Positions 17,001-46,443 of a DNA stretch of 64,000 bases are shown here, one piece after another (the stretch's first letter is position 1; every line of letters starts with the position of its first letter). The stretch comes from Antitrichia curtipendula (taxonomy: Eukaryota; Streptophyta; Bryopsida; Hypnales; Leucodontaceae). The notes beneath the pieces were generated by a model. It was not told the DNA's origin, made no database searches, and saw only the letters and a program-made list of their open reading frames with translations. A program made the translations under genes and the position numbers. Location of the stretch: assembly GCA_951230915.1 (NCBI GenBank), contig OX579642.1:8246001-8310000 (forward strand), read 5' to 3'.

Positions 17001-18852
17001 CCCTAGCCCTTGGGAAGCTCTAGTTGGTGATGGTGAAATTATTAGGGTTTGTCGAAGTGGGGCGTCTGTGGGAGTTTGGTCTGCGTGTGTTTGGAAAAGG
17101 TTTTGTTGTTGCTGCATGTTTTGTTTTGTGGAGGGGTAATGGATTGCATTCTACTCTTTGCGCTCCTGTATTTGCAAGGAAGAAATTAGGAATAAAATGG
17201 GGGTTGTGATGGTGACCTTTTGGGAACGTAGTTCTTTATGTATTCACGTAGTTCTAGAAAAGGGTTTTGTACTTACTGTCTGTTTTGTTTGTGAAGGGGT
17301 GATGGATCAAATTTTAGACATTGAGAACCTTTATTTGGACTGACGAAATTAGGGTGTTGTTAAAGTGACCTCAGTTCTTCGTGTAATCACTGTTCCAATA
17401 AGCTTTTCGCTGTTTCATCCTGGTTTGTTTCGTGAGAGTCTATGCATGGAATCCTCCATATTGCAGAGTTGCATTTGCAATGAAGAAAGAACAGATTGTT
17501 GTCAAAGTGACCTTTTTGAAACTGATTTGTTCACATAATCAGTGTTCTGATAACCTGTTGCAGTTGCTGCTTGTTTTGTTTCGTGAAGGGTCGATGAGTG
17601 ACATGCTACAGGTTGCAAATTTCCAATTGGGGGATGTCAAATTGACCTTTTTAAAACCGTCTACTTCACTTTGTTAGTGTACTAAATCAACCTGTTCCAG
17701 TTTCTGCCTGTTCTATTTCGTGAAGGGTCGATGAGTCAAATCCTACTGATTGCAAAGTTCCACAAGAGTGTTGTCAAAGTGACCTTTTTGAAACTGATTT
17801 ATTCACATAGTCAGTGTTTTTAAATCAACCAGTACAGTTCCTTCCTGTTTTGTTTCGTGAAGGGACTTCGAGTGAACTCCTACAGATTATAAAGGGTGTT
17901 CCAATAGGGTGTTGTCAAAGTGACTTATTCGAACTGATCTCTTCTTGTAATCACTGTTAAAGAAACAACACTATTGCAGTTTCTTCCTGTTTTTTTTCCT
18001 GAATATGGGATGCCAGTCTCTATATCCAAGACATGAGAATGAATATAAAATACTTGTGCAGAGTACGCCTACACCATGAACGTGACCGAGAAGTGCGACA
18101 TCTACAGCTTCGGCGTGGTCCTCCTGGAGCTCCTCACGGGCCGTCGCCCCATCCAGCCCGTGGATGATGGCGGCGACCTGGTGACTTGGGTGAAAGTGGC
18201 CATGCAGACGCACAAGTCCGTGAGCGTGGTGTTGGACACGCGCCTGGACCTGTCGGACGTGGTGGTGATCGAGGAGATGCTGCTGGTGCTCAAGGTGGCG
18301 CTCTTCTGCACCAGCAGCACGCCCCTCGACCGGCCCACCATGCGCGAGGTTGTAAGAATGCTCATGGAGGCCAGTACAAGAAAGGCCAGGGACTCCACAG
18401 ATGGGCAGTCCGTGGGGGAAGAAGGCTCCTTGGAGAATGGGGAGAATGGCCTGGTGGAGGTGGCACTGGCTTTGGGCTCCGGGGAGGAGCTACTCACGGT
18501 GGGGGCTGTCACAAGAGAGACTGTTGTTATGGACATGAGCTCGGAGCTCGAGGACGAAGAGGAAGACACTGGTGCTGTTGAGGAAACCGCTTCTGATAAG
18601 GGGGACCCCGTTTCTGATAAGCCGCGGGTGGAGCCTGTTTTTGAGCAGGGGGAGCCTGTTTCTGATAAGCAGGTGGATCCTGATTCTAATAAGCAGCGGG
18701 AGGAGCCTGTTTCCCATAAACCTGAGGAGCCTGTTTATGATGAGCCACTGGAGGAGCATGTTTCCCATAAGCCTGAGGAGCCTGTTTACGATGAGCCACT
18801 GGAGGAGCCTGTTTCCCATAAGCGGGAGGAGCCTGTTTCTGAAAAGCCTTAG
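14071..18852 (+). CDS. LRR receptor-like serine/threonine kinase, subfamily XI-like
   Basis: A membrane receptor kinase of about 1235 aa in two exons: 14071-16987 and 18062-18852. The intron, 16988-18061, has a GT donor and AG acceptor and joins APG to EYAYT through a split Glu codon. Order: signal peptide after a Trp run (residues about 1-28), LRRNT domain with WKGVYC, more than 20 plant-type LRRs (LxGxIPxxIG), one transmembrane helix at about 738-763, then the kinase. The kinase shows glycine loop GFGACG (about 808), AVKK lysine, HRD at 925-927, DFG at 945-947 and GSYGYIAPEY, so it is an RD kinase with all key residues. After the kinase fold (about 1077) comes an unusual acidic, repetitive tail. 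Similarity to the At1g17230/At5g63930 type is from recall of the family; ligand unknown. The intron position matches that common in this subfamily. Confidence 0.9.
17045..17985 (+). repeat. intronic tandem repeat, about 140-bp units
   Basis: The LRR-RLK intron is almost entirely a degenerate tandem array. The phrase TTGTCAAAGTGACCTTTTTGAAACTG or a variant recurs near 17211, 17366, 17507, 17641, 17778 and 17919, spaced 134-155 bp apart. Each is followed by a CTGTTxCAGTTxCTGCCTGTTxTGTTTCGTGAAGGG-type segment. Every unit carries an acceptor-like pyrimidine stretch ending CAG, yet the joined reading frame uses only the acceptor at 18060-18061. The open frames reported across it have no domains. 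Confidence 0.75.
18590..18849 (+). repeat. tandem repeat encoding the kinase C-terminal tail
   Basis: Within exon 2 a short unit based on GAGGAGCCTGTTTCTGATAA or CCTGTTTATGATGAGCCACTG repeats. It encodes alternating EEPVSHKP and EEPVYDEPLEE blocks over the last 85 or so residues. The frame stays open to the TAG at 18850-18852 and no unit breaks it, so length variation among alleles would be expected. Confidence 0.8.
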
Positions 18853-20459: not shown

Positions 20460-20908
20460 CACTAAAGATGATATTTAGTGTTGAGTGACATTTAGTGTTT
20501 TTACCCCCCTACTAGCTACAACACTAAATCTGAACTTGTCCACAATTAGTGTTAGACTTGAATGTGCCGGCTGCAAACTTCAGAGCCTTGTAACTTTTGC
20601 AAAAATTCTTCAAATCAGGAAAATGAGATGTTTTTCGGCATCTACAAAAACTGTAGATACCGAAAAACATCTCATTTTCCTGATTTGAAGAATTTTTGCA
20701 AAAGTTACAAGGCTCTGAAGTTTGCAGCCGCCTAGCCCTAATCGGTCCGATTCTGTCCGTGAACAGTGATATTCCGTCTGATATGACAACTCTGGTTCAC
20801 ATTTAGTGTTTGAATTGACATTTAATGTTACTTACTTTCATAGGGTAATTGGTTTTTAGTGTATGCCTTTGTATTTAGTGTACAAGACACTAAATATCAT
20901 CTTTAGTG
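20460..20908. mobile_element. CACTA-like MITE with subterminal repeats
   Basis: The left end CACTAAAGATG... and the right end ...CATCTTTAGTG are perfect inverted repeats of 22 bp, and the symmetry extends 4 bp outward on each side (26 bp, 20456-20912). TTTAGTGT or its complement recurs at least eight times near both ends, like the subterminal motifs that En/Spm (CACTA) transposases bind. The interior is non-coding and contains a long hairpin. The 3-bp target duplication expected for CACTA elements is not visible because the outward bases are themselves complementary. I place it in the CACTA group on termini only. Confidence 0.65.
20569..20729. repeat. 161-bp hairpin inside the CACTA-like MITE
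   Basis: Arms of about 77 bp starting GGCTGCAAACTT and ending AAGTTTGCAGCC pair almost perfectly; I see one mismatch (CGGCATC versus GATACCG) around a loop of a few bases. The open frame on the plus strand reads straight through it and has no domain. A transcript would form a long duplex suited to Dicer-type processing, but there is no evidence it is expressed. Confidence 0.7.
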
Positions 20909-23850: not shown

Positions 23851-24291
23851 AGTTAACCCAATCATTCACATGTGCAGACAATAGGGGGTGTCAAAGATGG
23901 TTGCTAGTGGTACGGGTTGAAATTCAAGTTTCACTTACTTTCAAGGAGATCCTCCATGTCACAAAATTATATTTTCCAAAGATTCTCAAAATCCATCATT
24001 AGGTTCCGGGTTTTGACAAAACCTAGAAAATGGGCTGAGGAATAAAGTTTTGTGACAAGGTCTCTTTGAAAGTAAGCAAAAATTGAATTTCAAACAATAA
24101 CCAGCTTCTAAGGGTGGATTTCCATGTGGATTTGGGGGCCAGTGGAGCATGTTGATCATCAATCAAATGGGCATTCTAGAAAAATGGGATGCCTATTGAC
24201 CGATGATCAACAAGCTCTACCGGAATCCAACTCCACGCAAAAGCCTGCCCTAATGCGCCCTAATATCTCATTTGGCTTCAACAACTGTTTG

Positions 24292-24840
24292 TTAGCCCCT
24301 AAAATGCCTGAGTCATCAAATTTTGTTGTCAACAATACTTTGAAGTTAATGAAAACATAATCAAGTTGCGATTTTTAGTAGTTTATATTTTTGAAAAATT
24401 CTTTTTGAAGTCTAGTTTTAGCATCAAAAATCTGATTTTGAAAATGATTGATTATGATTTTTCTATTCAAGATTTTGTGCAAGGATGTCCATTGCAATCT
24501 TAACTTTCCATAGAGGGCTCTTGGAAATGAGCCTCAAATGCACTAGATCTTGGAGAAAAAATCACATTAGAAATTCATTTAAAAAGATTGTAGAGTAGTT
24601 TTTGAGAAGCCATAAAATTGATTGGGATTATACATGTTAGGCACTTTATCCTCATATTTTTTTGGTGACCAAATTTTAGATTTGACATGTGAAAAGAGGA
24701 TGGATTGAAGGACTTTTGCAATATTTACATCTTCATAATCAACAATATAATCTTTCAATCTGTAAGTGATATTATTGTGTTTTCTTTTTCAATGTGATCT
24801 GTAACATGTTTAGTTTAAATTTATACAATTATTATCTAAA
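24292..24840 (-). repeat. TTAA-type element, family B, inverted copy
   Basis: The reverse complement of this stretch aligns with 7157-7811 and 45705-46354; shared phrases on this strand include CATTGCAATCTTAACTTTCC and TAGATCTTGGAGAAAAAATCAC. The left end reads TTAGCCCCTAAAATGCC, a one-base change from a TTAA terminus. The right end is eroded and cannot be fixed exactly. Confidence 0.6.
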
Positions 24841-24887
24841 AAATTGATACAATTTATCAAAATTTTGGCTTTTCTTCAATTTATGCC

Positions 24888-26749: not shown

Positions 26750-27131
26750 TGATGTGGCCGAAGTTCGGCCATGTCACCCTGCTGCAGTGGCGCAGTTTCA
26801 GCAGTCAGGAACTGCGCAAAACTTGTGGAGAACTTATGGGAACTCGCGGCCCCTTGGAGGGCCCAAATTTTTTCTAATGGACAATCTTGTTTTTGGGCAA
26901 TCTAAGCATTTTCTTGAAAAAATCACATTTTGTCCAACTTTGAATGCTAATATCTTTCAATCCATATGGTCAAGTTTAATGAAATTTTTACTAAACAATT
27001 TCAGACAAGTTAAATACAAGATCTTACAGTTAGATTCTATAAAAAAAATTGGTTTTCGTGAATGAACGCAGCAAAAGTGGTAGTTTTGATTGGTTTTTGA
27101 CAGAAAATGGCCTCAGTCCTTCAGGGATACA
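26172..27131 (-). repeat. family C element, inverted copy, with poly-T insert
   Basis: Starts TTGACTCCTAAAGGATC and ends CCTCAGTCCTTCAGGGAT, the degenerate inverse of the termini of 8904-9486. The inner parts align inverted, including TCCAACTTTGAATGCTAATATC. It is interrupted by about 350 bp at roughly 26520-26880. The interruption holds A/T homopolymer runs, a T tract at 26691-26744 and the palindrome TCTGATGTGGCC-GGCCATGTCA, and is related to the segment at 12155-12475. Confidence 0.5.
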
Positions 27132-27275
27132 TGGACACGAGGACATTTTTTTTGATATTGAATACATATTGAATTTGAGAATTTGAGAATTAACATCAGA
27201 ATTCACAACTTGTCTCCAACTTAATCTTAAGTTTTGTCACAAAAGATGTGTCTAATGAATGACTTTCTTGGTGTA

Positions 27276-27288
27276 GCATATTTTGACA
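27276..27288. repeat. target-site direct repeat, left copy
   Basis: GCATATTTTGACA is repeated exactly at 42423-42435, directly outside the inverted termini of the 15.1-kb element. Thirteen bases is slightly longer than the usual 8-11 bp of Mutator-like elements, so the true duplication may be a subset. Confidence 0.75.
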
Positions 27289-27853
27289 GGGTTGCTAGCG
27301 TGCGAGCCTGTGAGCCCGTGAGTCTGTGAGCGGGAACTTTCTTTTGCATAAAAAAAAGGTAAGGGACCTATGACCGTGGATTCTTTACATTCAGAATTAT
27401 AGAATTGTGAAGTCATTTAACCCTTGAAGGACGGATTGACAGCCGTGGAAATCATGCATTTTGGTACCATGTGGCATCATCTAATTTGAATAAGCCAAAT
27501 ATACTTATTAGAAGTCAAAATACTCTAGAAGATTTTTCATTTTCATCCCTAATACTGAGGATGAATAATTGTACTTCTATCCTGAATGGAGAGATTTTTT
27601 TTCATTCTTTGGACAAAAGACGTCCTTTGTGGTGTTTAAGGGTTAAATAAAATTTGATTTACTTGCAATAGTAATTTGAAGTGTTTTTTTGCAATATATT
27701 AATGTATTCATATTTGATAGACATCATGATATACAAATTGCAAATGGAAATATCAAATGTCCAGGATGTACTTAGCCATAAAACACACAAATCCAATCAA
27801 ATTAGAAATCCAATACAATAGTTCGACTCCTGAGATGTGTCAATCTCAAGAAT

Positions 27854-30800
27854 CTAAGTGGCAGTGGACTCAGTAGCGGAACCTTCAATAGAAGATGATG
27901 ATGACTCTGATGTCTCTCTACCCTCTGACGCACTACCATCTATAAACTCTAGAACATTCAAAGCATACGTATCTTTGCGGCGTTTTGGATTAGAGCTGTC
28001 AAATTCCACAAACGCAGATGCCATCTGCTCGGCATATACGGGAAGATGAAAAGGCTTTTCTGGACTTAAGAGAAGACTTCGCCTCTTCATAATCTCATTT
28101 GCTGATGTCAATCGTTGATGACTACAAACAGAAGTGAAACAATGTTAGACTTGCAAAACAAAAGATTTTTCTTAGAATTAAAAAAATACTAAAAAATCTC
28201 AAACTTACTTACTGAATGGTGTCTGTTGAGAGAACTTTTGAGGCACGATGGTCATGCCGTCCGGATCTTGGGATTCCTGAACTGCTGGTGGTGCTTGTGT
28301 TGTCTCCACGACTGGAGTAGACTTCTTCATGGGCTCAAGGATGGCTTTGAAAATATCTCCATCCTCCTCCAATGCAACAATGTGGCGGCCCGTGCCACGA
28401 CAAGCAGTAATGGAGGCCCCTAAAATGAACAACCTCACATACATTAATTAAATGACATAATTTGAAACAATACAGATGTAGTCAACATAATTAAATTAAA
28501 TTTATACCTGTAGCTGCAGTACAATCTAAAACTACATCTCCTTCGCCTGTTGTTGCTTCCAAGAGGAGTTGAAAAAAACGGGGGTCTTTTTCATGAGCCC
28601 ACGCCATGGTTTAGGACCGTCCATTGCCAAGTCACTCTCCTTCGTGAAGTTCATCAAAATGTCATCACGTCCGATGTCCAAGCCTGCATTCTTCATAGTT
28701 TGTGTGAATTTGAAAGAAAAATTGGATTTCCCTTTTGAGCCAAAATCCTTCACAAGTAGGGTGATTGAAAACTTCTGCGTCTGCAAGAAATTAAACCAAA
28801 CATATGTAAGAATTTAATGACAAAATGAATGATAAAATGACATGATTTTCAAAAGAAGTTCAATTATATTTACCGTGGTTTTGTTGTCTAATGCCGAAGT
28901 CAAGTGCAATCGATTCATGCCCAACCACTCCTTCTTCTTCTTCAACATCGGATAAATCTCGCACAGCCCTAGAATAGAGCTCTTTGAGTCCACGGAGAAT
29001 GAATGAATAATAATCAAACATCCATGATCTTGTAGATGCCTTTCTGCAAAGACAAATACCGCATGCATTGCCTCGTACTCTGTATCTTTGTTCCACTGTG
29101 GAATCTCATTTGTTGGCACCAACATTCCAGGCACGGGCAAATTCTCCGGACAGTCAAAGAAGATGAGGTCCACTACTGGCCTTCGGTTTATTACACCATC
29201 CAAAAATCGAGGCTTCCCTGCTGATACCTACAAACATACCGTATTCCACAAAATAAATTATGAACTCACAAAATCATCATGTCATTCAATTAAAAAAAGG
29301 GTTTACAATAACAAATCAAATATATTACTTTTGTAAAAAATTCCATAATCTCAGGATACCATGATGGTTCCGTCGAGCGCATGTCATCCACAAGGTCTAC
29401 AATAGAGATATTGAAGACCAAATCCTCCGTGTTGTCTCCCTCATTATCTTGAATCATAAGAGCTTGAGTGCCATGCGTTAGGACATCCTCGGTCAACTGC
29501 GACAATGCCTTCCTCTTCAATCCACCTTGAGACCCACCTTGCATCTGTGAGCCTTGGTCGACGGTAGAAGATGCTGGAATTGGATTTCTGTCATTCACCT
29601 TCTTCTTGCCTTTGGCCTTAGCCTTCTCTTCCTTCTCCTTCTCCTTCTCTTGCTCCTTCTCTGCTAACTTCGCAATGCGCTCCACTTCTTTTTTCTCTTT
29701 TGCGATGATGGTAAGTTTCTCCTTAGCTTCCTTTTTCCTATCATTGTGTTCCCTCCTTGCAATGGCCCTCTTCTTTTGTTTATCACTCAATCCTATAAAC
29801 TCATCAACGTCCAAATCAATGGCACCTAAACCCTCAAAAGACTTCCGGTATTGCATCTCAGACGGAGGCGTGAAGGTGATGTGGCACTCCAAATACCACC
29901 CTCCTCCACTGAGATGAGCTGTCGTGAACGTACGGAGCTGATTTAGGGTGTACATGCAATCTGCTGAACTTCGATCAAGCCAAGTAGACAAGAACGGAGG
30001 AAGATCCTTTTCTGCAATTGCATCCTTTGGAAGAAGTTCCAACTTGAAATACTTGCGGTGTAATTCAAATGTGTCATTGCATACAAGTTTCAAAATACAA
30101 TACACTAAAAACAAATCAATACATTCTTTTATGCAACACCAAGAAAACAGTGAGTATTAGCCACATAAAGAAGAATTTACTAGTGCATTTTATGGTTGCT
30201 ATGTTGAAGCAAATAAGCCAAATATTCAAGAAAAGGAAGAAAACCAAATTAAAAATCCATTTCATGCAAAAAGTTGGGGCTTCACATGGTATCTACAAAA
30301 CCATAGTCAAATTATTGTATTTACATGGGAAACTATCATACACAAAAATCTATTTGAAAGACAATGGTACCACTAATTGGAGGTGAATCTGGTAACTCCT
30401 AGAGCTTAGTCAGATCCGACTAAGCTCTTTGAGGTACCAGATTCACCTCCAATTCCTGTTACCCCTCACCATTTCAAACAATTTTTTAATTATACGCACA
30501 GATTTCTGTAAAAGTATAAAATTGAAATATGTACTCTTCATCGCTTATTCTAACAAAAAATAAAGGGGTCTATGAACAAACCGAAATAGAACTCTTCGAA
30601 CCGCCTGGTTTGAGCCTTCATAATTCATGAAGGAGTCACTCTTCTTAAAATAATTTGCTCCCTTCAATTGGGCCTGAAACCCGTGCTCCCACATCCTCCT
30701 TCTCCAACCTTCTATGTAATCCGCAAGGAACTCTGGCCTCTGTGGGACTTCCATATTGATGGTGATGTTATCATCTTTGATCACACCATCAAAGTATTCA

Positions 30801-32562
30801 ATAGCTGCATCTTCAATCTAAAATAAAGCAAAAATAAGATTGTTTATTCAACAAAGTGACAATGTGACATACATGTCCAAAAAAATAAAAAATTAGTCAC
30901 ATGCAAATTCATGAATACTAAGGAACTTTATTCAATGAAAAATAGCAACTACAAAAAACATTAGAAAGGTTAATACAATATCACTTACCCCAGCATACCA
31001 AACACATTTGTTCAAGAATGGCCCAAGGTGGGTCTCAGATACTAGTTTAGCAGGAAACTTCCTAGCATCGCGGGATGGCACAGAAGAATTCCACCACTTC
31101 AAAAACTTTGTCTTGTGATGAGAAGTTGTGTTGCATGTAGCAATCAGTTGCAGCTTCTCGAGGGTCATCTCTGGAACTTCGTTATTACAATAGTGCCTCT
31201 CAACCTGCATAATTAAAACAACATCATTTCACATGAAAAAAAAACCCTGAAAGTAAAAGTATGTCAATAAATTATTTTGGAAAATATACAAATACCTCTT
31301 CCAAGAATTCAGGACCATTTGCCGGATTAGCCACTGCTACTAACTTCATCATCTTCATGTACAACTTGTTCACTTTCTCTTTAGCTCCCATTCTCATAGC
31401 ATTTGCGATGCCAGCCTCGCTTTTATCAACCTCCACAGTTGTCTCACTGTACTTTCGTCCCGCCGCATACGCTGCTAGTGAAATCTCTTGCTGAAAGAAA
31501 CCAAAAGCTTCTTAATAGTAGTGTTGTATAATAAATCAACACAAGTGACCAACATAGCAATGTAAATGAAATTTCAAAATCAAAATCATACCCGAAACAT
31601 GAAAGCTATGAATACATCAGCTGGCATGGAGTACCAGGTTTTCCTAGTACTGGAGGCCATACATTTTTTCACCTCTGACGGCCTTAACATCTCCAAAAAC
31701 TTTGGCAAAGATAAAAGACCATACTTCTGCACACGATGCAATGTGTGGACCAAGTTGGTCTTCACATGAGAGTCTTCCGTTGATCTGAATTTCAAAAATT
31801 AGAATTAGAATTTCATTTTCCTACTTTTCTCATGAAAAAAAAGGCTAAATCCAATTAAAACATTAAAACATGTACTACCAAAATATGTATGATAACAATC
31901 ACTTACTTGTTTATGTCATGCATGACTTCCATGGCCAATTCAATTTTTCCTTTTGTATCAAGAACGATGCAATCTACTACAATGTGCCATGCCTCGTCTG
32001 CTGAATAGAGTCTAGAAATGTGACTCATCCATGCTAGCAAACAGTGGTTTTCATCACACACAAAAAACTTTGTCCTCCTCAAAAAATGCAATGCCTCATG
32101 TGAATTAACATGATCCATGAACTCATTGTTTGCTTTTTGCCAAACTGACCCCCAATTGCGCATTTCTTGCTCTGTAAATTCCATGTTTTCACCTGCCTCG
32201 TTTGTAGTGGAAACGTAGAAAGCGGCAGACCCTGGTCGATACCCATGAGAAAATTCTTGCTCCAGCTTCTTCACATCAGAAGACAAGGTAGGTCGTGCCA
32301 TGGGCATGGACACCAATCTGCACAAGGGGATAAAAAAACAAAAAAGTTTTTCTGGTTGCAGTCTTAACGAAGCAATTGTGGCAACTGAATCGACCTTTTG
32401 CAATCGGCGGAGCTCATCTTCAAGAAGCTCCTTTTCTTCATCATCAATGCCATCCTCTTCCATATGACTTCCTTCATCTTCCTCCTCAATTTCAGGCTGA
32501 GTGGTGTCATCCGTCCCAGGAGTCCGCTCGAATTGTGTCTCTTTTATTGGAGACTCCTCCAT
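27854..32562 (-). CDS. transposon-borne gene with DNA-methyltransferase-like C-terminal region
   Basis: Exons read on the minus strand: 32562-31907, 31784-31592, 31490-31296, 31204-30989, 30817-30582, 30104-29329, 29227-28874, 28780-28508, 28419-28209, 28121-27854. All have AG/GT borders, and phases agree except at the fifth-sixth junction, where one base is unaccounted for. About 1125 aa. N-terminus: acidic (MEESPIKE). Middle: a Lys/Glu coiled coil in exon 6. Exon 7 has DLIFFDCPENL, at the place of catalytic motif IV. Exon 8 has KPWRGLMKKTPVFF (motif X-like), then after a 7-T run the frame must shift to read EGDVVLDCTAATGASITA (motif I), and exon 9 has GRHIVALEED (motif II). The order IV-X-I is that of beta-class N6A/N4C methyltransferases. 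DCPE replaces the usual DPPY, so catalysis is doubtful. The domain assignment is by eye. Confidence 0.6.
30375..30454. repeat. core-palindrome hairpin 1
   Basis: Arms AATTGGAGGTGAATCTGG and its complement flank the centre TTAGTCAGATCCGACTAA (one base off perfect). It lies between exons 5 and 6 of the minus-strand gene, so in an intron. The spacer sequences between arm and centre differ from those in the other four hairpins. Confidence 0.75.
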
Positions 32563-32759
32563 CTGCAATGACAAACCAAATAAACTCAAAATTATAATTG
32601 AATGGAATCATAAGACATCATGAACTTCTGAATTAATGATAAATGTAAACATAAAACTTTAATGCCAATGCCATGTCATATTACAATGGATGGATGAAAA
32701 TAAATAATTAATCAAATAACCACCCTCACTGGGCTTTACATAAAGAGTTAATGATCTAC

Positions 32760-33241
32760 CAACTCTCATAGGATGTAAACCGAATCAAAGGGCTATCAAC
32801 ATCCACATCCTCATCTGAGCTATAATGGAGTAAGACCACTCTGGAACCATTCACATGAGCGCTAGTTGCATTGTCCCCAGTTTCTTCAAAATTGGGACTA
32901 GTAACCGTAGCAAGAGACTCCTCCTCTGAGCTATACTCAGTCTCTGAGCTCTCCTCAGAGAACATTGGTTGCCTTCCTTTCCGGAAACGCATATGGTCTG
33001 AGAAACGACTAGCTACTGGCTCTTTCTCAAACTCATCTGCTGCATGATCGGCAGCATCCATAATATCATTGAAGCTTACCAAGTCTTCTTCGTCAGCATC
33101 ATCATCTGAAATGTCGATGTTGGAAGGAGAAGGGAGCATTTCCATTGCCTGCGATGGACCACCAATATCTGCTACCGTGACAATGTCCTGCTGCACAATG
33201 AAGGCTAAGGTTGGTCCTTTTTTTCCTCGTTTTACTTGGAC
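32760..33241 (-). CDS. acidic exon upstream of the methyltransferase-like gene
   Basis: An open stretch beginning after a plausible acceptor (TTTTCTCATATAG) reads VQVKRGKKGPTLAFIVQQD and continues as a Ser/Asp/Glu-rich protein (SDDDADEED, SSEEESL) to TSYESW and a TAG. A GT donor overlaps the stop, but it leaves a phase that does not fit the next exon. Either this is the 5' part of the same gene with a disturbed junction, or a separate short protein. No domain is recognised. Three of the five hairpins lie between this exon and the next open stretch upstream (36471), so that gap may be a long first intron. Confidence 0.45.
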
Positions 33242-33537
33242 CTATATGAGAAAACAATAATATTTGAGTATGTGTACAATTGACCTAAAGTAAAGAAGTG
33301 ATCACATTTGACATATGCTATTATAAAAAAAAAGTTAGAATCTGTATAAAAAAAATTAATCTCAAGAAATCAACCGAAAATGATAAAAGAAGTGGTTTAG
33401 GTGGAAAGGTGCCCAAGTTTTATAATGAATGCTTTTAAAGCTAATTACCTTAAGATTACACCCCCCTACACAAAGATAGTTCATATACAAGTAAAAGCCA
33501 TGAGAAAAGAATTTAAAGTTTTGATGTGCTTATTGGG

Positions 33538-33637
33538 TGTAACCATTTTTTTGGGATGAAGCTAGTGCTCTCAAGACCCTAGTCGGATCCGACTAGGGTC
33601 TAGAGAGCACTAGCTTCACCCCCCAAAAATGGTTACA
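33538..33637. repeat. core-palindrome hairpin 2
   Basis: A 100-bp inverted repeat whose arms read TGTAACCATTTTT, GATGAAGCTAGTGCTCT and their complements. The centre is a 26-bp perfect palindrome, 33575-33600, built on CTAGTCGGATCCGACTAG. It lies upstream of the acidic exon. Confidence 0.85.
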
Positions 33638-34006
33638 TCCACTTGTAAAAAATATTCATATGAATTAATTTAATACATGTCATTATACTCTAAGCCATAG
33701 ATCCAATCAATTTAAATGTGCAAACAAAAAATGCACGTTTGTTTAATTAAATATTATTTTCATATTTCATCGTTGAACTTCAAATACCACAAATTTATAT
33801 AAAACATGACCCTAAAACCAAAATTATGTAAGACTCAAGTTAGATAATCTTTGCATAATTATTGCTCCTATCATTTTTCATTATATATTATATTCAATTT
33901 TTTCAAAGGAAAGATGAAATTGTATGTTTTTTTAATTACTTTAAAACTTTTAATCTTTCACATGAGAATAATTAAAAAAGAAACTAAATTATAAGGTAAA
34001 TCCTCA

Positions 34007-34114
34007 TGCTAGTACCAGTTTAGGGGGTGTGAAGGAAATCCTCACCAATCCCTAGTCGGATCCGACTAGGTCTTGGTAAGGATCTCCTTCACCCTCTCTA
34101 AATTGGTACTAGCA
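34007..34114. repeat. core-palindrome hairpin 3
   Basis: Arms TGCTAGTACCA-TTTAG and GTGAAGGA-ATCCT pair with their complements around CCTAGTCGGATCCGACTAGG (34051-34070). Several mismatches and small gaps make it older or less constrained than hairpin 4. Confidence 0.8.
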
Positions 34115-34609
34115 CGGGGACATGAGCTTCAGCTACATAAGTATATCATTTAGTAATTTAATATTCAGTCTCTCAACACATCCAACCCTTTTTCAACCTT
34201 ATTTATAACCAACTAGAAGATCAATTAAAATGACTAAAATTAAATATTTGAGGACCAATAGTCCAATACCCTTATGAGCACCAACGTCACCAACTTGTTG
34301 GACAATCAACTACTAACATTTTTCACAGAAAATCATCACTCCATCTTTGACACATTCCAAGGACCTCTGTGAATTTAATCTACAGGTTACACAAGAAAGT
34401 TGGGGACTGATTCGTGTGCTTCAGACTTCCTAATTGCATTCTACAAATTGACTTAAAGTTCACCTGGACATTTACACATGATTCAATTAACACGTTTAGA
34501 CATTATTTAGTTAACCCATTATTTATTTAGACTATGCACGACTAAGCGGTTTAGCATCCTGAGAGACTGAATGGTTTGAGAGACTAAGCACACTGAGAAC
34601 TAACCGACT

Positions 34610-35720
34610 CAAAGAAATGAACGAACTAAGCAAAATCAACCAGCCAGCCAGCCTTGATGAACCCTGATCAACCAGCAAAATCAACCAGCCTTGATGAACC
34701 CTGATTAGCCGTGCTACAGACTGAGAAATTTTGAAGAAAACAAGTGATCCCCGTCAAGGTACCGATTTCGGGGGGTGAAGCAAAGCTTCACCGAGCCCTA
34801 GTCGGATCCGACTAGGGCTAGGTGAAGCTTTGCTTCACCCCCCGAAATCGGTACCTTGACGGGGAAGCACAAAGTCACCGAAGCGCACAGAAGTCACTTG
34901 ACGGGGAAGTACAGAAGTCACCGAAGCGATCGCACATCACGTACAGAAGTCACCGATCAGAATTTCTGTACAGAAAGTCACCGAAGCCTTTGTTCCAAAC
35001 AGAACGGCTAAGGACGGAACAGCTACGGATGGAATGGATTGAACGGACTACGAATGACTTCCCGAGAAAACACGATGCCGATGCCGATGTCAACTAGCAA
35101 ACACGATGCCGATGAGCAAACACAATGCCGAGCAAACTTCCTGAGCAAACACGATGCCGACAACCAACTAGAAAACACGATGCCGATGCCGATGCTAGTC
35201 AGGAAAAAAAATTCACCTTTTCGGAGGGACGCGCTTCGTGCTGACCCGAATCCTGCAAGTCGTCCTCCTGAGCAAGACGATGCCTAGCGCTGCGCCTCGT
35301 TGCGGTGGTCTGCATGATGAGAGATTAATTATCAGATTTCTGAATGCAAGTGAAGCCACGCAAAATGTAGAAGTTCAACAGTTGGGGCCTTGCTTGCTCG
35401 ACTTGAAGTTGCTCGACTTGGAGGAGCCCAGTGAAGCTGCCGGATTTCTAGGTGGTCAGCCTTATCGTGATCAGGCATCCGGGATCGTGATCAACCAACC
35501 AGTCTTGATTAGCCAACCAGCCTTATCGTCATCAGCCAGCCGTGATCAACCATATGTCAACTTCTTGCTTCATCTTTCCCTGCGAGAAAAGCTCACCCTC
35601 GTGGTGGGATATTTGCAGACATCATAAATTGCAGTCTTGAAACATGCGGAGAGCAATGGCTACAGGGTTGTCCAGATGTAAAAATCAGGCCAGCAGGTCA
35701 GTTTGATCAGCCAACAGGCC
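34610..35720. other. GC-richer tract with short direct repeats
   Basis: Inside the Mutator-like element this tract is richer in GC than its surroundings. It contains short repeats: CAACCAGCCAGCC/TTGATGAACCCTGAT near 34640-34710, AGTCACCGAAGCG near 34870-34990, and AACACGATGCCGATGCCGATG near 35070-35190. Open frames here (for example 35238-35627) have no recognised domain. It may be host sequence picked up by the transposon, as in Pack-MULEs, or subterminal-type regulatory repeats. Confidence 0.4.
34749..34864. repeat. core-palindrome hairpin 4, nearly perfect
   Basis: A 116-bp palindrome with 58-bp arms that differ at one position (CACCGAGCCC versus CACCTAGCCC). Order from outside: CCCCGTCAAGGTACC, GATTTCGGGGGGTGAAGC, AAAGCTTCACC, then the centre CTAGTCGGATCCGACTAG. 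The near-identity of its arms suggests recent formation or ongoing arm homogenisation. Confidence 0.9.
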
Positions 35721-35966
35721 TTGTAAAATCCACAGAAGCACAGCCTGGAGAACGGTATGACTTGACCAATAACGAGCACTTGGCATTTAAAAAGTAATAC
35801 ACAAGATTCCTAAGTTTGACATTTATTCAACTTAAAGAGATCCTACATTCTCTTAAAACTTGTAAGAAGGCTATCTGATCAATGGACATTCAATTTCCAT
35901 TTAGAAAAAGTAAATGATCACACCCTGGATTTTAAAGTAGACCCTTTTTGGCTCCTATTCCATCCA

Positions 35967-36200
35967 TTAATCCCTAAATAACCAAGATCATTTTTCGATC
36001 AAAAACCACTCAAACTGCCACTTGTGCTCTGTTCATTAATGAAAACAAAAGAAACTATTTTTTTAAGAATCTAACCGTAGGATTTTGTACCTTATTTATC
36101 TAAGATCATTTGATAAAAAATTCCTGAAATTTGACCTTACAGATTTAAAGATATTAGCATTCAAAGCTGGAAAAATAATTTTTTTTGAACTGTGGCCTAC
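35967..36200 (+). repeat. family C fragment inside the Mutator-like element
   Basis: Begins TTAATCCCTAAATAACC and matches the left part of 8904-9486 (AAAACCACTCAAACTGCCA, TCTAACCGTAGGATTTTG). The right terminus is missing or too diverged. Its presence shows that TTAA-type elements were active after this Mutator-like lineage formed, unless it was captured. Confidence 0.5.
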
Positions 36201-36470
36201 AATTTCAGATGACTTTGACCACAATTTGTAGAATTTCTTTGCACTGTGAACTTTGAATTAAATTGTTGTAACACTTATACATCTCTAGAAGATTTATGAC
36301 ATTACACAGAAAAAATCAATATACAAACCCTAAACGTAGTAGTTATAAAATAAAGCAAGACCTAGCCCCAATACCTTTTAAATTTGTTTTATTATATTCT
36401 AATTAAATTTTAAAAAATTATAGAAGATAATCATCTTACAAGGAACATAAAGAACATTTAGTCGTACAAT

Positions 36471-37269
36471 TTATACTGGCACAAGGAAAAAGTTTTGTCT
36501 ATGAAATAGTTTTGCATGCACAAACTCAATATCCTTCAGAACATGAGAATTGAACACTGAGGATTCATGTCTTATAATATATGGACAATAATAAAGAATT
36601 CGAGTCTCTACAGATTGTAGTGGCCTTAGTCTTGATTTTGGAATGCAAGTATGAATGTTGGAAAAGAGATCCTTGAAGTTCAAAGTGTGACAGTGTAGGA
36701 AGTTGGACTTGTAATATCCATTGAACTTGCACTGCATAAACTATGACGAAGATTAACTACATTAAAATATAGAAAAAGGTTCAAAACATTCTTACATTTG
36801 CAGGAATTTCGAGTGCTACTTCATGTTGTTCTCCAGTCGTGTCCTCCGACATTTCTTGCATTGCATGACGGACTTGCTATCCACCTTCGTCCTCGCCACC
36901 ACTCCCACCAGTTTTGAATTGTAGAACTTTGCGCAGCTCTCCAGCAGTCACCCCATCTGTCTTTGACATGATTTTCCTTCCTCGACTCATCCTAGATCTC
37001 GTAAGTGCCTTTCGGGATGAATAATACAAGGAACTAGGCCTCTTCCTTCTCTTTCTATACTACAAACTAGAAGTTGGAGCGTCCCAAGTCTCTACTAACA
37101 TGAGGTGAGAGTCTACTACATAAAAGTGTTTGCTTTCAACTACACACGGTCTTAGCACATAACCAAATAGAAATGGCTCTAGCTTACACACCGTCTTGTA
37201 CTTATGTTGTGGAAGCTTGAACCTTCAAGCTTTGGATGCCACATCAAGGAGTAAACTGATGTCAGAAGC
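36471..37269 (-). pseudogene. broken two-exon reading frame left of the transposase
   Basis: On the minus strand an exon-like stretch starts after TTTAG at 37269 and runs to a GT donor after 36796, in one frame of 158 codons containing three stops: TGA 37225-37227, TAG 37060-37062, TAG 36877-36879. It reads ASDISLLLDVASKA, then KYKTVCKLEPFLFGYVLRPC, later MSKTDGVTAGELRKVLQFK and a Glu-rich end. It splices in phase to 36731-36471 (CKFNGYYKSNFLHC... to LVPV and a stop). No family is recognised. It could be the original 5' part of the methyltransferase-like gene or a third gene. Each stop is one C-to-T change from a sense codon (CGA or CAG). Confidence 0.5.
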
Positions 37270-37861
37270 CTAAAGTGACATTGAAAGATGTTTTAGAAAA
37301 TAGGTTGTTGAATGCGCCGTCAGTATTTCAGATATAAATCGTGGGAATCCCTAAATGACTCTGACACTCTCAAATAAGGTCATAAATAAGATATGGACGG
37401 TGATTGCACAGTCGTTTCCGTCCACACCATCAATGACAGACAACGCATCAACGCATTGTTTGTTGAGCCGTCAGTATTTAAAGTATGAATCGTGGAAATC
37501 CTTAAATGACTCTGACACTTTGCTTTTACTGACTCCTGCAAAATAATACGGGAATCTACTTGAAAATCCTTTTATGTGCCGACATCTCAGGTTCATGAAC
37601 GAACTCTGACAACGCCGCCTACTGGCATTAATTTCCTTCCTAAAATCTGATTATAGGGAAGTCAGACGAGTATGGCGGCTTCCATGGCGGTTGCAGAATT
37701 GTTTCCATCTACGCCATCAATGATCAACACCAACTTTCCATCATATTCATGTCTTGAATTATAGGTATTGGCATCTCTTCATATGAAGGTGTTTGTTTCC
37801 CTCTTCCCATACGTTGGATTGTGTATTCCCCCTTGCAGTACTTCATACTTGCATTACAACC
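37270..37861. promoter_or_regulatory. spacer between divergent transposon genes
   Basis: Two direct repeats occur here. GCCGTCAGTATTT...AATGACTCTGACACT is found at 37316-37368 and 37467-37519 (period 151 bp), and a 37-38-bp segment ending CCATCAATGA is found at 37397-37434 and 37687-37723. The second repeat encodes IDGVDGN on the minus strand in both copies, so part of this region may be duplicated 5' exon of the minus-strand gene rather than promoter only. No TATA box was assigned. Confidence 0.4.
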
Positions 37862-40800
37862 ATGGCTTGTATTAGAGTTGATGGTCACGAGGTTCCACTT
37901 GTTTTTCCGGTAGATGAAGGAAGTAGGGCTAGAGTCTTCAATCACCTCCTCCATGTTCGCTTTAAATTTGTAGAGTCATCTATCTATGTAGAAGAAGAGA
38001 GAAAGTCCGAATCCGGTGAGTTGCAACAATCCATTCCCATTGTCAAGTCTATTGAAGAAGAAGGTCATTGTTGGTACCTTCCTATAGGAAATTACAGAGC
38101 CTATGGACTTCTTTTGTCCATGCTAGGTGCCTCCACCGAGATTATTAGTCGTCAGTCAGATAATTCCACAGTGGATATGCCATACATAGTTCACGGAGTT
38201 TCGTCTAGCCCACCTCGCAAAGTGTTTACGGTGCTACCAAGGACTGGTATTCTCCAAAAAGTGAAAGTCGAGAAGCTAGATCCAATCATAGAGTTGTCTA
38301 GTGAATCGGAAGGAGAGTCCCCTGATGTGACACTTGTGAAACAACAATGCGCAGTTGCATCCAAGTCAAATGAGATCTCAATGGATAGTCCATTATTTTT
38401 GGAAACTCCATGCAATAGTCTTGTGCAGTCGTCACTTTTGTGTCCACCTTTGCATCCTATTCCAGGCGACCGTGTAAGCATTATGGAGTGTTTGAAGAGA
38501 CTAGCTACTGTTCAACGTTCTCGGAACGAGTTGTCAACAATGGATTTGAACGTCATTAAGCACCATCTTGTGCAGTATTTGCCTGTTGTTTTCAATGGAG
38601 ATGTTGTCTTTGAGTTGCCTCCGTGTCGATCTTCTTCATCTTCATCAGCTACACGCAACTTAGAGGGAATGGACAAGCGATACGACGGACACCCGTGGTG
38701 CAAGGTAGTGACTACTAACATACACAATACTAACAACTTGAGGTTCCGTAAGTCATATTGTGCTGGTCACCTCACTTGTGAAATTCCGCACTGTAATTAC
38801 TTGAAGAGAGCTAGTAGGAAGAATGAAACAGAGTGGATGGAATATACAATGTTTCCTTTTGCCGTAGGAAATAGTCCCCCTAAAGATTCTACTGTAGTTT
38901 GCAAAGTCTGCAAAGTTACACCTAGGTGTCTCAACACATGTGAGGCTAGAATTTACTACTGCTATAGTGAAAATCCAAAAATGAGTAGAGCAGCTATTCA
39001 CTTTGGAGATCACAATCATCCAGTGGCAAAAGGCATGTATAGAGATTCAACAGAAAAAATTTGTGATCTCATCGCGGAGCAAGTGGCAAAAACACCAACG
39101 GCCACTAATTCTGCCATTGCTCTATCTGCTAGCAAAGACTTTCTAAATGATTATTTATTTCATGACGGAGAGGCAGAGAAAAAAATATTGAAGGGTGAAG
39201 AACTAGAGGAGGTAATGGATCGTTTTCAGTATTTGAGTAGTCCAAACATCCGGAATGTAATCTCTTCATTTCGCTCAAGCAACCGAGGGGGGGTTATCGA
39301 CAATATAATGACTATGAAGAAGGAGTCGAAGTTTGAATTTATACACGAGAGCGTCTTTCCAGGCCAAGGCAAAGAGAAGGTGTACGTCTTCAAGATGCTC
39401 ACGGAAGGACCTGGTAGTAGAGTGGACCTCGTGCAACGCATGCAACCCGGAGGTGATCTTCAAAACGCGTGGATGATGCTTGACCATGTCAAGCGAGTGA
39501 AGGAGTGGACCACAATGGCTTGCCACGTGTATGATCCGGAATACAAGAAGGTCATGACTATTTCAACATGTGATATGCAATCTGAAGATACGGAGATCCA
39601 GATGTTGTTTTGGAGGTGCTTGAATGATGTGATGTCACGGAACGGTGTAGATCACCCAAACTTTAAGGGGTTCATGGCAGATAGCGCTATGGCCAATTGG
39701 AATGCAGTGCGAATTGTCTACGGTAGCGGCTCACCCAATGAAAAGATGGAGAATCGTGAGAGGACATGTTTGTTGCATTGGACTACTTCACTTCATAAGC
39801 ACACACAGAAGCACATCAAAGATGTATTTCAGCATCAACACAACAAAATGTGCAAACAATACAAAGATTCTGAGACTATGGAGCAGGCCGAGACCCGTTA
39901 CCTTGCGATTCGGTCGTGGTGGTTATCATCAGGGGCTGCAAGTGAAGAAGCACTTCATCACCTGGACCACTGGTTGGCATTTTGGCATTTTTGTTACCGC
40001 CAGTGGGGCGGTTTCATGCAAATGGTAAGTGGCCTTTAAATTTGGACATGTGTATTGTTTTTAAACATTGATAAATGTGTTGAGTGAAATTAAAGAATGG
40101 AAGTTTGGGTTCCATGTATACATTTTATAAATCACATGTAGAGTTATCAGAAATCAGAACTTTTGTCAAATTTTTTTTAAAATTATAAGGAATCGGTAGA
40201 AGGTTTTTGAAAGAGGAGGTGAAGCTGGAACCACTTAGGCATTAGTCGGATCCGACTAGTGTTTTGTGGTACTAGATTGACCTCCTGTTTTTGATAGATT
40301 GGAGTGAATGATAACAAAAAATGGGAATGAAATTGTTTAGTTATATGTAATAGAAAAGAAGGAATTTTTAGCAGTGAGCGTTTATTTGGGGGCGTTATAG
40401 TTTTAAATTTTGTTTTGGGGAATGTCTTTCATATTTTTGAAGTTTTCTTAACCTCTAACATTTTTGAATGTTGAAAAATAGTTTTGGGTTTGAAGGAACA
40501 TATAATTTCACATAATAACTGATGTATCATTTTGTTGGATTTTGCAGGGATTAAGTTTGGAGGAGATGGCTGACATGCCTTCATGCAATTTGTCCGAAAC
40601 TATTCACAACAAGTGGCTTCAAATGTCCGGAAATCGAGGAAATAATTTGTTTGACGCCACTTGCGATGATAGCATCCGGGCATGGATGCAAATGACTAAT
40701 TGTCGTGCATATTTGAGAGGTCATGCATGTGGATCCGGTCCATCAAAAGGGGAATTGAGATTGAGAGCAGCGAGATGAAGCGGAGATCCAAAGAAAATTG

Positions 40801-41936
40801 CAGAGGCATTGAATACACTTCCTGGATCAGAAGGTGTTGGAACTCAAGTACCACATTTGGAAGGAGAGGAGATTTTTGGAAGCACTAAGAGGAAATTGGA
40901 CGTGCCCATTGGAGATGCAGGAGACTCACATCGACCTGATAAGGTGAATTTTTCACAACCACGTGTTCGAACAAGGTCAAAGTCGACTTCTGTAGAGTCT
41001 TCTGAAGGGAAAAATAGAGAAATTGCAACAAACAATTTCCACCATGTCCCCATTGCATTTGAAAGTGACTGCAACACATCCAAGTGGCACATTGCACGAA
41101 TTAGCCACAAATCAAACGCAAAATGTCAAGCTCAGCAACGAGGTTCAAACATGAAGTGTACGGCAAAAATATCAAAGGGATAGAAAGGAACTCCAGCTCC
41201 CACCTACCGCGGAAGAAAAGAAGATTACGGAAGTAAGCGTGAGGTTGTGGTGGACTTTTGGTTCTGCTGGGATGACATTGAACGATGTGTGAAAGGCACA
41301 AAGCGGAAGTGGGTCATTGATTGGCCAGAGGTGCCTGAGATTTGGCCTATTTTGACTGGAACTCATCTTAATAGGGATGAAACTGTGCTACTGCAGCATG
41401 CGGGCTTCCGTCTTCAAGAAAGCCTTATATTATCACCACGTCGACTTTTCAGCATGTCAAAAGTATTCAAAAGCATTCTCTATGATCAACCGCCACCACC
41501 AAATCCGACTCAATATCCAACGGTTCGGAACAATCGAAACATACGTCGAATTGCAAATGCACCAACACCAGAACAGAGGAACAAGTGGGAGAGCGCAAGC
41601 AATGTTAGAGGACAAATTGTAGGAGTGACATTGCTTCCTTTTCCTGGCCTAGGTGCAATAGTGTCACTAGAGACAGGGGCAAATACTAACAGAAATGTAT
41701 ATCGAATTACAGTGGGTATGTATCCCACATGCACATGTCCAGACTTCGTTAACATGATTGTTTCCGCAATCGGAGGTCGCCAGCAATACGCAAATTGCAA
41801 GCACTTGTATTATTTGTTTAGGTACTTCTGCAAGATGGATGTTCATAATGATGTATTCATTCATGCACCAAGTTACAGCTTCAATGAATTGAAGCTACTC
41901 CTAGTTCGAGCAGGGATCATTACAATCTTGGAATAG
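37862..41936 (+). pseudogene. Mutator-like transposase with SWIM finger, two nonsense codons
   Basis: Exons 37862-40024 and 40548-41936 join in phase 0 (ATG|GTAAGT donor, TTTTGCAG acceptor) for about 1183 codons. The start is the ATG of MACIRVDGHEVP. Domains: Cys/His-rich GCM or FLYWCH-like DNA-binding region at about 272-390 ending HFGDHNHPV; RNase-H-like core with YDPEYKK (D558), MADSA (D607) and a CLLHW motif (C636, H639), matching the D...D...CxxH layout of MULE transposases; and a C-terminal SWIM finger CTCPDF...CKH (C1116, C1118, C1138, H1140). Exon 2 is interrupted in frame by TGA at 40776-40778 and TAG at 41181-41183, with coding sequence continuing in the same frame after each. The third catalytic acidic residue is not assigned. 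The protein would recognise the terminal repeats and cut and paste the element. Confidence 0.8.
40214..40286. repeat. core-palindrome hairpin 5
   Basis: Arms AGGAGGTGAAGCTGG and CTAGATTGACCTCCT pair imperfectly around ATTAGTCGGATCCGACTAGT. It lies inside the only intron of the transposase gene (40025-40547). Confidence 0.75.
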
Positions 41937-42422
41937 AAGAATGAACATTTTGTTGGATACTGTATTTACAATGTATTAATTTACATTTATTTTAAATTGG
42001 AATTGAAATTGAAGAACATTTTCGTCTTCTTTTTTTCATTTATTTTCTAGTTTTGATTTTATCTTTGTCACTTTTTTTATTTTTTTTTGGTAAGCCCAAT
42101 TTTGTTTTCATCTTTTTTGTTGTTTATTTAATTTCCTTATATTATATTTTTCCTTCCTTTTTCCTTATTTCTATTTCAATTTTTGACCATGTTTTGACCA
42201 TTGACATTGAAAAATGAAAACTGGAAGACCTGCCAAAAATTAATTCATATCCACGGTTATAGGGTTAGCGGTCATAGGTACCTAGAACTTACTAAATATA
42301 GCATTTTTTTTTTAATTTTTTTCAGTTGAAAATTTTTTAGGGGGATTTTTTAATTCTTTTTAAGTTTTCAAGGCTCACAAGCTCACAAGCTCGCCGCTCC
42401 AGGCTCGCACGCTAGCGTCGTT

Positions 42423-42435
42423 GCATATTTTGACA
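42423..42435. repeat. target-site direct repeat, right copy
   Basis: Exact copy of GCATATTTTGACA found at 27276-27288. The sequence beyond (TTACTCTTGATGTGAAATTG) continues the paralogy with 22790 onward, as expected for the right flank of an insertion. Confidence 0.75.
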
Positions 42436-45704: not shown

Positions 45705-46354
45705 TTAACCCCTAAATGCCCAAGGCTTGTTTTGAGTTGATTGAAATTTGCTCTAAATTGAACAAAATGCCAACATTTTGATAAGTTGTATCAGGGTTTT
45801 TTGAATTGTAACCGTACAAATTCAAACTAGACATGTTAGAGATCTCATAGGAAAAGAAAACACAACAATATCACTTATGGAGTGAAAGATTATAATGTTT
45901 GACCATGAGGGTGTTAAAACTGCACAAATCTTTTGATCCTCTTTTCACAAGCCAAATCTAAAAAGTTGGTGACCAAAAAAATATGATGTTAAAGGGCCTA
46001 ACATGTATGACCTCAATCAATTTATGGCTTCTTAAAATCTACTCTATAACTTTTTTAAATGAATTTTGAATGTGATTTTTTCTCCAAGATCTAGTGTATT
46101 TGAGGCTCATTTCCAAGAGCTCTCAATTCTACGGGAAGTCAAGATTGCAATGGGTACCCTTGCACAAAATCTTGAGTAGAAAAATCACTATCATTTATTT
46201 TCAAGATCGTATTTTTAATGCTAAAACTAGACTTCAAGAAGAACTTTCCAAAAATATAAACTACTAAAAATAGCAACTTGGTTAGGTTTTATTTAACTTC
46301 AAAGTTTTGCAAACACCAGATTTGGGTGCCTCGGGCATTTACAATAGGGGTTAA
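45705..46354 (+). repeat. TTAA-bounded element, family B, best copy
   Basis: TTAACCCCTAAATGCCCAAGGC at the left pairs with GGGCATTTACAATAGGGGTTAA at the right, giving interrupted inverted ends inside a TTAA duplication. The unit is 650 bp, non-coding, nested in the mariner-like insertion, and is the reference for the copies at 7157-7811 and 24292-24840. Confidence 0.7.
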
Positions 46355-46443
46355 CATGCTCAGTATAATTCATGCAATTTGACAACTCTTCTCACACAAT
46401 TTATTCATCCTATGGACAACTTGACTATTCCATGTACAATCAT

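Follow-up and report, generated by a model that had tools for sequence, protein, structure and literature searches.

A putative Mutator-like transposon of the moss Antitrichia curtipendula carries a gene with a beta-class DNA methyltransferase-like domain and element-associated palindromes

A 15.1-kb DNA transposon of Antitrichia curtipendula carries two divergent genes, one for a transposase and the other for an accessory protein whose C-terminal domain is homologous to the permuted (beta-class) DNA amino-methyltransferases. The borders of the element are defined, the gene pair is co-mobile, the catalytic motif of the domain is changed, the domain is under purifying selection, and noncoding copies of the 12-bp palindrome GTCGGATCCGAC are tied to the element. 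We propose, with a probability of about 0.45, that the D-x-P-E protein, which is likely non-methylating, would bind these palindromes to counter silencing.

All coordinates are positions in the window, the whole stretch of 64,000 nt that was analysed. The single transposon occupies positions 27287–42423. The left terminal inverted repeat (TIR) is CAGGGTTGCTAGCGTGCGAGCCTG (27287–27310, plus strand), and the right TIR is CAACGACGCTAGCGTGCGAGCCTG as read on the minus strand (42400–42423). The two 24-bp ends have a 17-bp core in common, and the 10-bp target-site duplication (TSD) CATATTTTGA is located on both sides of the element (27277–27286 and 42424–42433). TIRs and 10-bp TSDs were detected in the window element and in all ten other chosen elements; nine of the 11 are perfect, and two have one mismatch. 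For Mutator-like elements a TSD range of 8–11 bp is described (PMC6446971), and the 10-bp TSD of 11 out of 11 elements agrees with it; the TIRs are likewise a feature of Mutator-like elements. The inner 17-mer of the TIR, with up to two mismatches, is present at 282 places in the genome, against 13 for the reversed control.

The first long exon of the transposase gene (37862–40024, plus strand; the frame is open to 40039) starts at a predicted ATG and ends at a predicted donor site, and the region 37865–40036 was used as the query in the transposase searches. By eye, HNHP, D and CxxH-like motifs are seen in this exon. The later coding part (40548–41936, plus strand) contains CTCPDF..NCKHL, which we take to be SWIM-like; like the HNHP and CxxH-like motifs, it was assigned by eye. 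No match to the transposase was obtained in Pfam up to an E value of 10, nor in the PDB. The assignment to Mutator is based on the element ends, with their TIRs and 10-bp TSD, and on transposase motifs judged by eye. The window copy of the element is broken: the methyltransferase-like gene has a frameshift and, barring an unseen intron, the later transposase part is interrupted by in-frame stops (40776 and 41181).

The methyltransferase-like accessory gene is located on the minus strand at 27854–32562 and has about ten predicted exons. Splice sites were placed by eye, with uncertainty where exons 5 and 6 join and over a 51-nt intron within exon 1. Exons 1–6 show weak Pfam matches, all under the cut-offs. 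Exon 6 (29329–30051, start uncertain) contains the YFKLELL..WLDRS..WYLEC region and a charged linker, and a region resembling it is also located upstream of the domain in the database relative P0039. Exon 7 (28874–29227) holds the motif IV region VDLIFFDCPENLPVPG, with DLIFFDCPENL, and the next strands. Exon 8 (28508–28780) holds the motif X-like KPWRG..EK and the start of motif I, and exon 9 (28209–28419, end approximate) completes motif I and continues into motif II (ASITACRGTGRHIVALEED), with GRHIVALEED. The peptides quoted in the initial annotation are therefore present in exons 7, 8 and 9. KPWRGL and VVLDCTAATG both lie in exon 8 as annotated, but a 1-nt frameshift between them places them in different reading frames in the window copy. 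As the two regions are matched in one frame at 38 of 43 other genomic loci, the frameshift is damage of the window copy. Exons 7–9 are stop-free and nearly gap-free at 24 of the 44 compared loci.

The two genes recur together as a family in the genome. At least 259 matches to the methyltransferase-like exon were found in the moss genome, and many of them are stop-free. Among the matches listed, a divergent methyltransferase-like copy is located within 15 kb of 48 of the 62 transposase copies, compared with a random mean of 0.17 and a maximum of 2. The identities of the linked partners are correlated (rho 0.64, n = 48), and the spacing of the pair is stable at 7.5–11.4 kb. These results bear out the earlier claim that a plant transposon carries the methyltransferase-like gene, and further copies, too, show the gene linked to the transposase, which had been set beforehand as a test.

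The homology to beta-class methyltransferases is shown by profile and structure searches. The read-through domain of the window copy matched the CcrM family model at 4.1e-6 and the sequence of the CcrM structure at 0.0022, collinearly over query residues 19–246. In the profile search, DpnA and CcrM were matched at 1.4e-6 and 9.6e-6, respectively. PF01555 was matched by ten of 11 family members at E ≤ 1 (best 1.5e-5), and PHROG methyltransferases by all 11 (best 1.7e-8); the window copy itself reached 14.8 and 18.6 bits against PF01555, for which the Pfam cut-off is 26.7. The database relative P0004 carries a precomputed PF01555 label. When the structure model of the relative P0014 was searched with Foldseek, all eight matches at E ≤ 0.001 were beta-class DNA amino-methyltransferases, including 8urk (6.9e-5, probability 1.00, query TM 0.42). 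A second model, of the C-terminal half (P0004, pLDDT 59.6), gave no Foldseek match at E ≤ 0.001. According to these matches, the domain has the SAM-dependent Rossmann fold of the PF01555 enzymes, as the initial annotation had anticipated from motifs, and a chance resemblance of motifs is ruled out by the profile and CcrM matches and by the PF01555 and PHROG matches of the relatives.

The motif order IV, X, I, II within one domain is the same as in CcrM, DpnA/M1.HpyAVI and M.BceJIV, and the profile alignments are collinear. The permuted order previously read from the peptides thus stands, whereas its motif IV is D-C-P-E and not [DNS]PP[YFW]. The transposon domain differs from the PF01555 enzymes in this D-x-P-E tetrapeptide, in a motif I that is mostly DC[TS]A[AS]TG and in being part of a protein of about 1100 aa. 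Using the alignment as the query, 153 database relatives were found at E ≤ 10, the best 120 of the 153 at E ≤ 1.6e-16; the domain alone retrieved seven. The full 1089-aa gene (residues 700–1000) retrieved none at E ≤ 10, probably because the database relatives are single-exon fragments outside the query length range. The PF01555 model found no place in the genome at E ≤ 0.001, and as the transposon copies were missed too, the moss may still have a host enzyme of this class. In viral and prokaryotic contigs, scans using the alignment with two short patterns each gave 57 and 21 pattern matches, none of which was confirmed.

The fourth residue of motif IV is Glu in 42 of 43 genomic copies (Lys in one) and in 47 of 49 database relatives (Lys and Gln in one each), and an aromatic residue is found in none of them. 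D-C-P-E is thus not damage of the window copy. Because this residue is nearly always Glu and never aromatic, the earlier suggestion that the gene modifies DNA is not supported, and the protein probably does not act as a conventional DNA methylase. The Asp and the last Gly of motif I, the Glu of motif II and the Lys of the motif X-like region are conserved in the genomic copies and the relatives, and with these residues activity could be retained. The first glycine of motif I is Ala or Ser in 58 of 68 relatives. The dN/dS of the domain is 0.07–0.29 in 62 of 66 pairs, mostly 0.1–0.2, and the domain is under purifying selection.

The element-associated 12-bp palindrome is a new observation. GTCGGATCCGAC is present at 379 places in the genome, against three for the reversed control. 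Among the first 50 cores listed, 35 have a listed copy no more than 16 kb away (mean of the null 0.56, maximum 5), and the other 15 are away from listed copies; in the fully listed stretch, the exact core is absent from the span of nine of 22 copies. Five palindromes are present in the window element. Palindrome 1 (30366–30463, core TAGTCAGATCCGACTA) is located in intron 5 of the accessory gene, palindromes 2 (33534–33641), 3 (34001–34120) and 4 (34748–34865) are intergenic, and palindrome 5 (40215–40285, core TAGTCGGATCCGACTA) is located in the transposase intron and has short ungapped arms only. In each of the other four, arms of 49–60 nt form a long inverted repeat. Mean identity of the arms between copies is 0.41–0.47, and seven of nine stay 0.77–0.97 self-complementary. 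With up to two mismatches, the core is found at almost the same position in 30 of 30 transposase introns, and the reversed core in none. In L062 and L064–L066 the site has two mismatches and lacks good palindromic arms, and the intron of L039 shows no alignment with those of L059, L063 or L067 outside the palindrome site. Among 30 close domain loci, 28 have the palindrome in intron 5, the window copy being one of them (control, 0). The TIRs contain no copy of the palindrome, which points away from a transposase bound at the ends as its reader.

By enrichment and position, the palindrome is an element-enriched motif of noncoding regions, as in the VANDAL/VANC system, where the motif bound by VANC21 is enriched in noncoding sequence of its own transposon (PMC5735166). 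Palindromes tied to the element in noncoding DNA give a new reason to consider a VANC-like role, and it is by analogy with the Arabidopsis VANC proteins, which have element-specific motifs of their own, that we propose a self-recognising anti-silencing factor built on a methyltransferase fold. In the proposed mechanism, the methyltransferase-derived domain likely no longer methylates bases, and its cofactor pocket may still bind SAM. The accessory protein, and not the transposase or a host factor, would read the GTCGGATCCGAC palindromes, and the binding would shield the element against DNA methylation by the host, in the way that VANC shields VANDAL elements. To this anti-silencing reading we tentatively add a wider, somewhat less probable one: a bacterial-type methyltransferase may have been turned into a self-recognition and anti-silencing factor whose D-x-P-E fold would read GTCGGATCCGAC palindromes kept in the introns and promoter region of the element, in which case VANC-type immunity would have arisen independently of VANDAL.

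It is also conceivable, at rather low probability, that the accessory protein is a transposition cofactor, comparable to the second genes of some Mutator-like elements, and that the palindromes are regulatory sites recognised by the transposase or a host factor. The co-mobile pair with its stable spacing is consistent with a cofactor, and sites between divergent genes and in the transposase intron are where regulatory sites might be; however, the palindrome is lacking from the TIRs, the expected place of transposase binding, and the conserved methyltransferase domain and pocket residues are left unexplained. We regard it as unlikely that the protein is still a methyltransferase which, with altered chemistry or target, marks element DNA or a protein. 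The conserved motif I, II and X-like residues and the low dN/dS would suit an enzyme, and so would the GATC inside the palindrome, an adenine-methylase-like site. Against this, the base-stacking fourth position is aromatic in none of the copies and relatives, the first motif I glycine is mostly replaced, and METTL14, in which the tetrapeptide is EPPL, lacks activity (PMC5023411).

It is improbable that the palindromes are separate structure-forming insertions, such as MITE-like or hairpin elements, that have no connection with the protein. The long arms of four of the five window palindromes and the 15 cores away from listed copies point in this direction, but the arms differ between copies and yet are mostly self-complementary, unlike copies of one MITE, and the transposase-intron site keeps its place in 30 of 30 copies though some introns are otherwise unalignable. 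The idea that the gene is a fragment taken up from the host or a bacterium and now degenerating in a single element, to which the frameshift of the window copy might point, has almost no probability left and is refuted by the number of exon matches, the tight transposase linkage and the low dN/dS.

METTL14, which belongs to the MT-A70 class, differs from the moss domain in class, in its RNA role and in not being transposon-borne. The two are alike in a methyltransferase fold whose catalytic tetrapeptide has lost the aromatic residue (EPPL in METTL14; PMC5023411). The moss element resembles Arabidopsis VANDAL/VANC in combining a transposon, an accessory gene and a short element-enriched noncoding motif, and it is set apart by description, since the passages on VANC describe no likeness to methyltransferases (PMC5735166, PMC10398659). 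The VANDAL motif is 9 bp long and arrayed in one orientation, whereas the moss site is a dispersed palindrome; anti-silencing was shown for VANC and is proposed for the moss protein. Other transposons bear epigenetic-type enzyme domains as the moss element does: DIRS1-like retroelements a methyltransferase domain, MuDR and Harbinger SET, and fungal transposons TET/JBP (PMC3266345, PMC12730594, PMC6446971). They differ from the moss element in the class of the element or in that of the enzyme. Among the literature matches listed (titles, abstract openings and passages, with few subscription journals), no Mutator-like element with a beta-class methyltransferase was found. Bdelloid N4CMT and the Marchantia 4mC methyltransferase are likewise bacterial-type amino-methyltransferases in eukaryotes; they are described as host enzymes, whereas the moss gene is transposon-carried, and N4CMT, in which SPPY is retained, is an active enzyme that places 4mC at transposons (PMC8885841).

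How plant transposons escape silencing by the host has been worked out in detail for very few elements. The moss family supplies a defined protein, a defined active-site change that has persisted through deep divergence and a defined 12-bp site, so that binding and methylation assays can directly address whether a methyltransferase fold can be reused for anti-silencing or self-marking. Should the domain still have enzymatic activity, it would represent a transposon-borne modification system whose catalytic motif is new.

The element corresponds to 27287-42423 (15137 bp) and encloses both the accessory gene and the transposase gene. Its borders follow from two features found in the flanks of ten further elements, picked as near-complete pairs: the ends are CA...TG, and a 10-bp target duplication is present in 11 of 11 elements including that of the window (nine perfect, two with one mismatch). 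The outermost seven bases differ between the ends: apart from occasional changes, the accessory-gene side has CAGGGTT and the transposase side has CAACGAC. In the window, the 13-mer GCATATTTTGACA occurs exactly twice, at 27276 and 42423, and a 17-bp inverted repeat is located at 27294-27310 and 42400-42416. At up to two mismatches, 282 genomic places match this 17-mer, and 13 match its reversed control. The 100 places listed include 23 pairs that face each other at a distance of 3-45 kb, and in 14 of these pairs both genes, as taken from the listed copies, lie in between. The duplication length and the ends fit the Mutator-like identity given by the initial annotation, whereas Pfam recognised no family for the transposase.

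Inverted repeats of 82% identity (24290-24883 and 45754-46356), about 21 kb apart, bracket the whole element. A third copy at 7309-7812 suggests that they are a dispersed repeat and not element ends. Another dispersed repeat, with copies 74-78% alike, is located just beyond the left end (26917-27135), within the element (35963-36184) and elsewhere (8904-9126). A leucine-rich-repeat receptor-like kinase gene was recognised by eye at 14065-18852 (+), with apparently intronic tandem repeats around 17095-18003 and EEPVSHKPEEPVYDEP-type repeats in the C-terminal tail.

The accessory gene is predicted to have about ten exons from 32562 to 27854 on the minus strand, with splice sites assigned by eye. 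The gene and peptides quoted in the initial annotation are present in the window sequence, but in the window copy KPWRGL is read in one frame and VVLDCTAATG in another. At 38 of 43 other genomic loci, the two are matched through in a single frame. Directly upstream, an acidic open frame of 161 aa (32756-33241, minus strand) has a splice-acceptor-like AG before it and a stop at its end, and may be the final exon of a third element gene.

In the 400-Mb plant genome searched, at least 259 exon matches to the domain encoded by exons 7-9 were obtained at E <= 0.001. Identity ranges from 52 to 93% in the matches listed, and many of these are free of stops. For the first transposase exon, 62 matches were scored, at 74-100% identity with the window's own counted. 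The two genes are linked in other copies: a divergent domain match lies within 15 kb of 48 of the 62 copies, and within 60 kb of 54. Over 1000 random placements at 15 kb, the mean is 0.17 and the maximum 2. Within pairs, the identities of the two copies are correlated (Spearman 0.64, n = 48). The accessory gene belongs to the element as a stable component. Three transposase copies (L063, L067 and L068), 77-78% identical, have no nearby domain copy among the domain matches listed.

At 43 genomic loci, leaving out the degenerate L035, the motif IV positions are D in 42, C in 41, P in 36 and E in 42, and N follows directly in all 43. The one organism named among the 120 database relatives listed is a moss, Ceratodon purpureus (P0004 and P0014), from which a moss is the likely source of the window too. 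Of these 120, 49 cover motif IV (46 under a stricter rule). The first D is present in 49 of 49, the third-position P in 41, and the fourth position is E in 47, K in one and Q in one. In none of the 43 loci or the 49 relatives is the fourth residue aromatic. In covering relatives, motif I keeps D in 66 of 68 and the last G in 64; at the position of its first G, 58 have A or S and 7 have G. The W of PWRG is invariant in the 70 relatives that cover it, the motif X-like K is kept in 69 of 70, and the motif II E in 10 of 11. For exons 7-9, dN/dS is 0.07-0.29 in 62 of the 66 pairs formed by 12 loci; two close pairs give 0.44 and 0.48, and two pairs give no defined value. In many pairs dS is above 1 and rough. 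Against the window copy, the transposase ratio is 0.08-0.10 in ten distant copies and 0.21-0.64 in close ones. The conservation and the low dN/dS mark the motif IV change as old and selected rather than as decay. By sequence comparison, the domain is homologous to the beta-class methyltransferases, as the initial annotation held, yet fails their catalytic motif, and so is not classed as a beta-class enzyme. According to passages of a published account, METTL14 has EPPL, with no aromatic residue, a case of such loss alongside inactivity (PMC5023411).

The window's element contains five sites with TAGTC[AG]GATCCGACTA, and the 12-bp core, at up to one mismatch, has no other place in the window. 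Inverted repeats with 49-60 nt arms are centred on four of the sites; the arms of the fifth are short and ungapped. Separately, a nearly perfect palindrome without this core is located at 20568-20730 (79-nt arms, 5-nt spacer).

Across the genome, the 16-mer TAGTCGGATCCGACTA is found at 144 places and its control at 0; for the 12-mer core GTCGGATCCGAC the numbers are 379 and 3. Of the first 50 places listed for each, 37 and 35, respectively, are no more than 16 kb from a listed gene copy, where random means are 0.58 and 0.56; several of the listed places away from gene copies cluster as elements do. The sites recur at three positions: some 1.03-1.27 kb ahead of exon 7, some 4.3-5.9 kb ahead of it in the stretch between both genes, and about 0.2 kb past the first transposase exon. 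The first of these is present at 28 of the 30 best domain loci, mostly close copies, and the reversed core at none.

In the transposase intron, a perfect palindrome of at least 16 bp is present in 17 of 30 copies: 13 match the 16-mer exactly, one is a variant, and three have the core between different arms. The core with up to two mismatches is found in 30 of 30 copies (reversed core 0 of 30), 171-220 nt past the matched exon in 29 and 374 nt in one. In the distant copies L063, L067 and L068, the palindrome keeps the 12-bp core with arms unlike the window's. Across the rest of the intron, L039 gave no local alignment with L059, L063 or L067; the copies compared have a coding dS of 1.2-1.5 relative to the window copy. 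At least 25 introns were reached by 2 of 200 half-site shuffles, close to how many should, by expectation, recreate the original half-site. The arms vary between copies; seven of nine examined are 77-97% self-complementary, and those of w40251 (the window's intron palindrome, 40215-40285) and L067 are not by a gapless measure. The exact core is absent from 9 of 22 copies on a fully listed stretch, which counts against generality.

According to passages of two reports, the VANDAL21 accessory protein binds a short motif enriched in the element's noncoding DNA, and DNA methylation is lost (PMC5735166; PMC10398659). The window's element likewise has an accessory protein and a short element-enriched noncoding motif, and here we infer that the protein would bind the palindrome. 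In the present element, the candidate protein has a DNA-methyltransferase-like domain with the base-stacking residue replaced, and the site is palindromic. The likeness to the VANC system is one of anatomy rather than of established kinship. The transposase or a host factor may possibly read the palindrome; however, the terminal repeats, to which a transposase would be expected to bind, do not contain it. The accessory protein may also be an altered enzyme. From the VANDAL21-like anatomy, the replaced residue, the palindromic site and its position outside the terminal repeats, we propose that the accessory protein would be a DNA-recognition factor, which likely counters silencing of the element.
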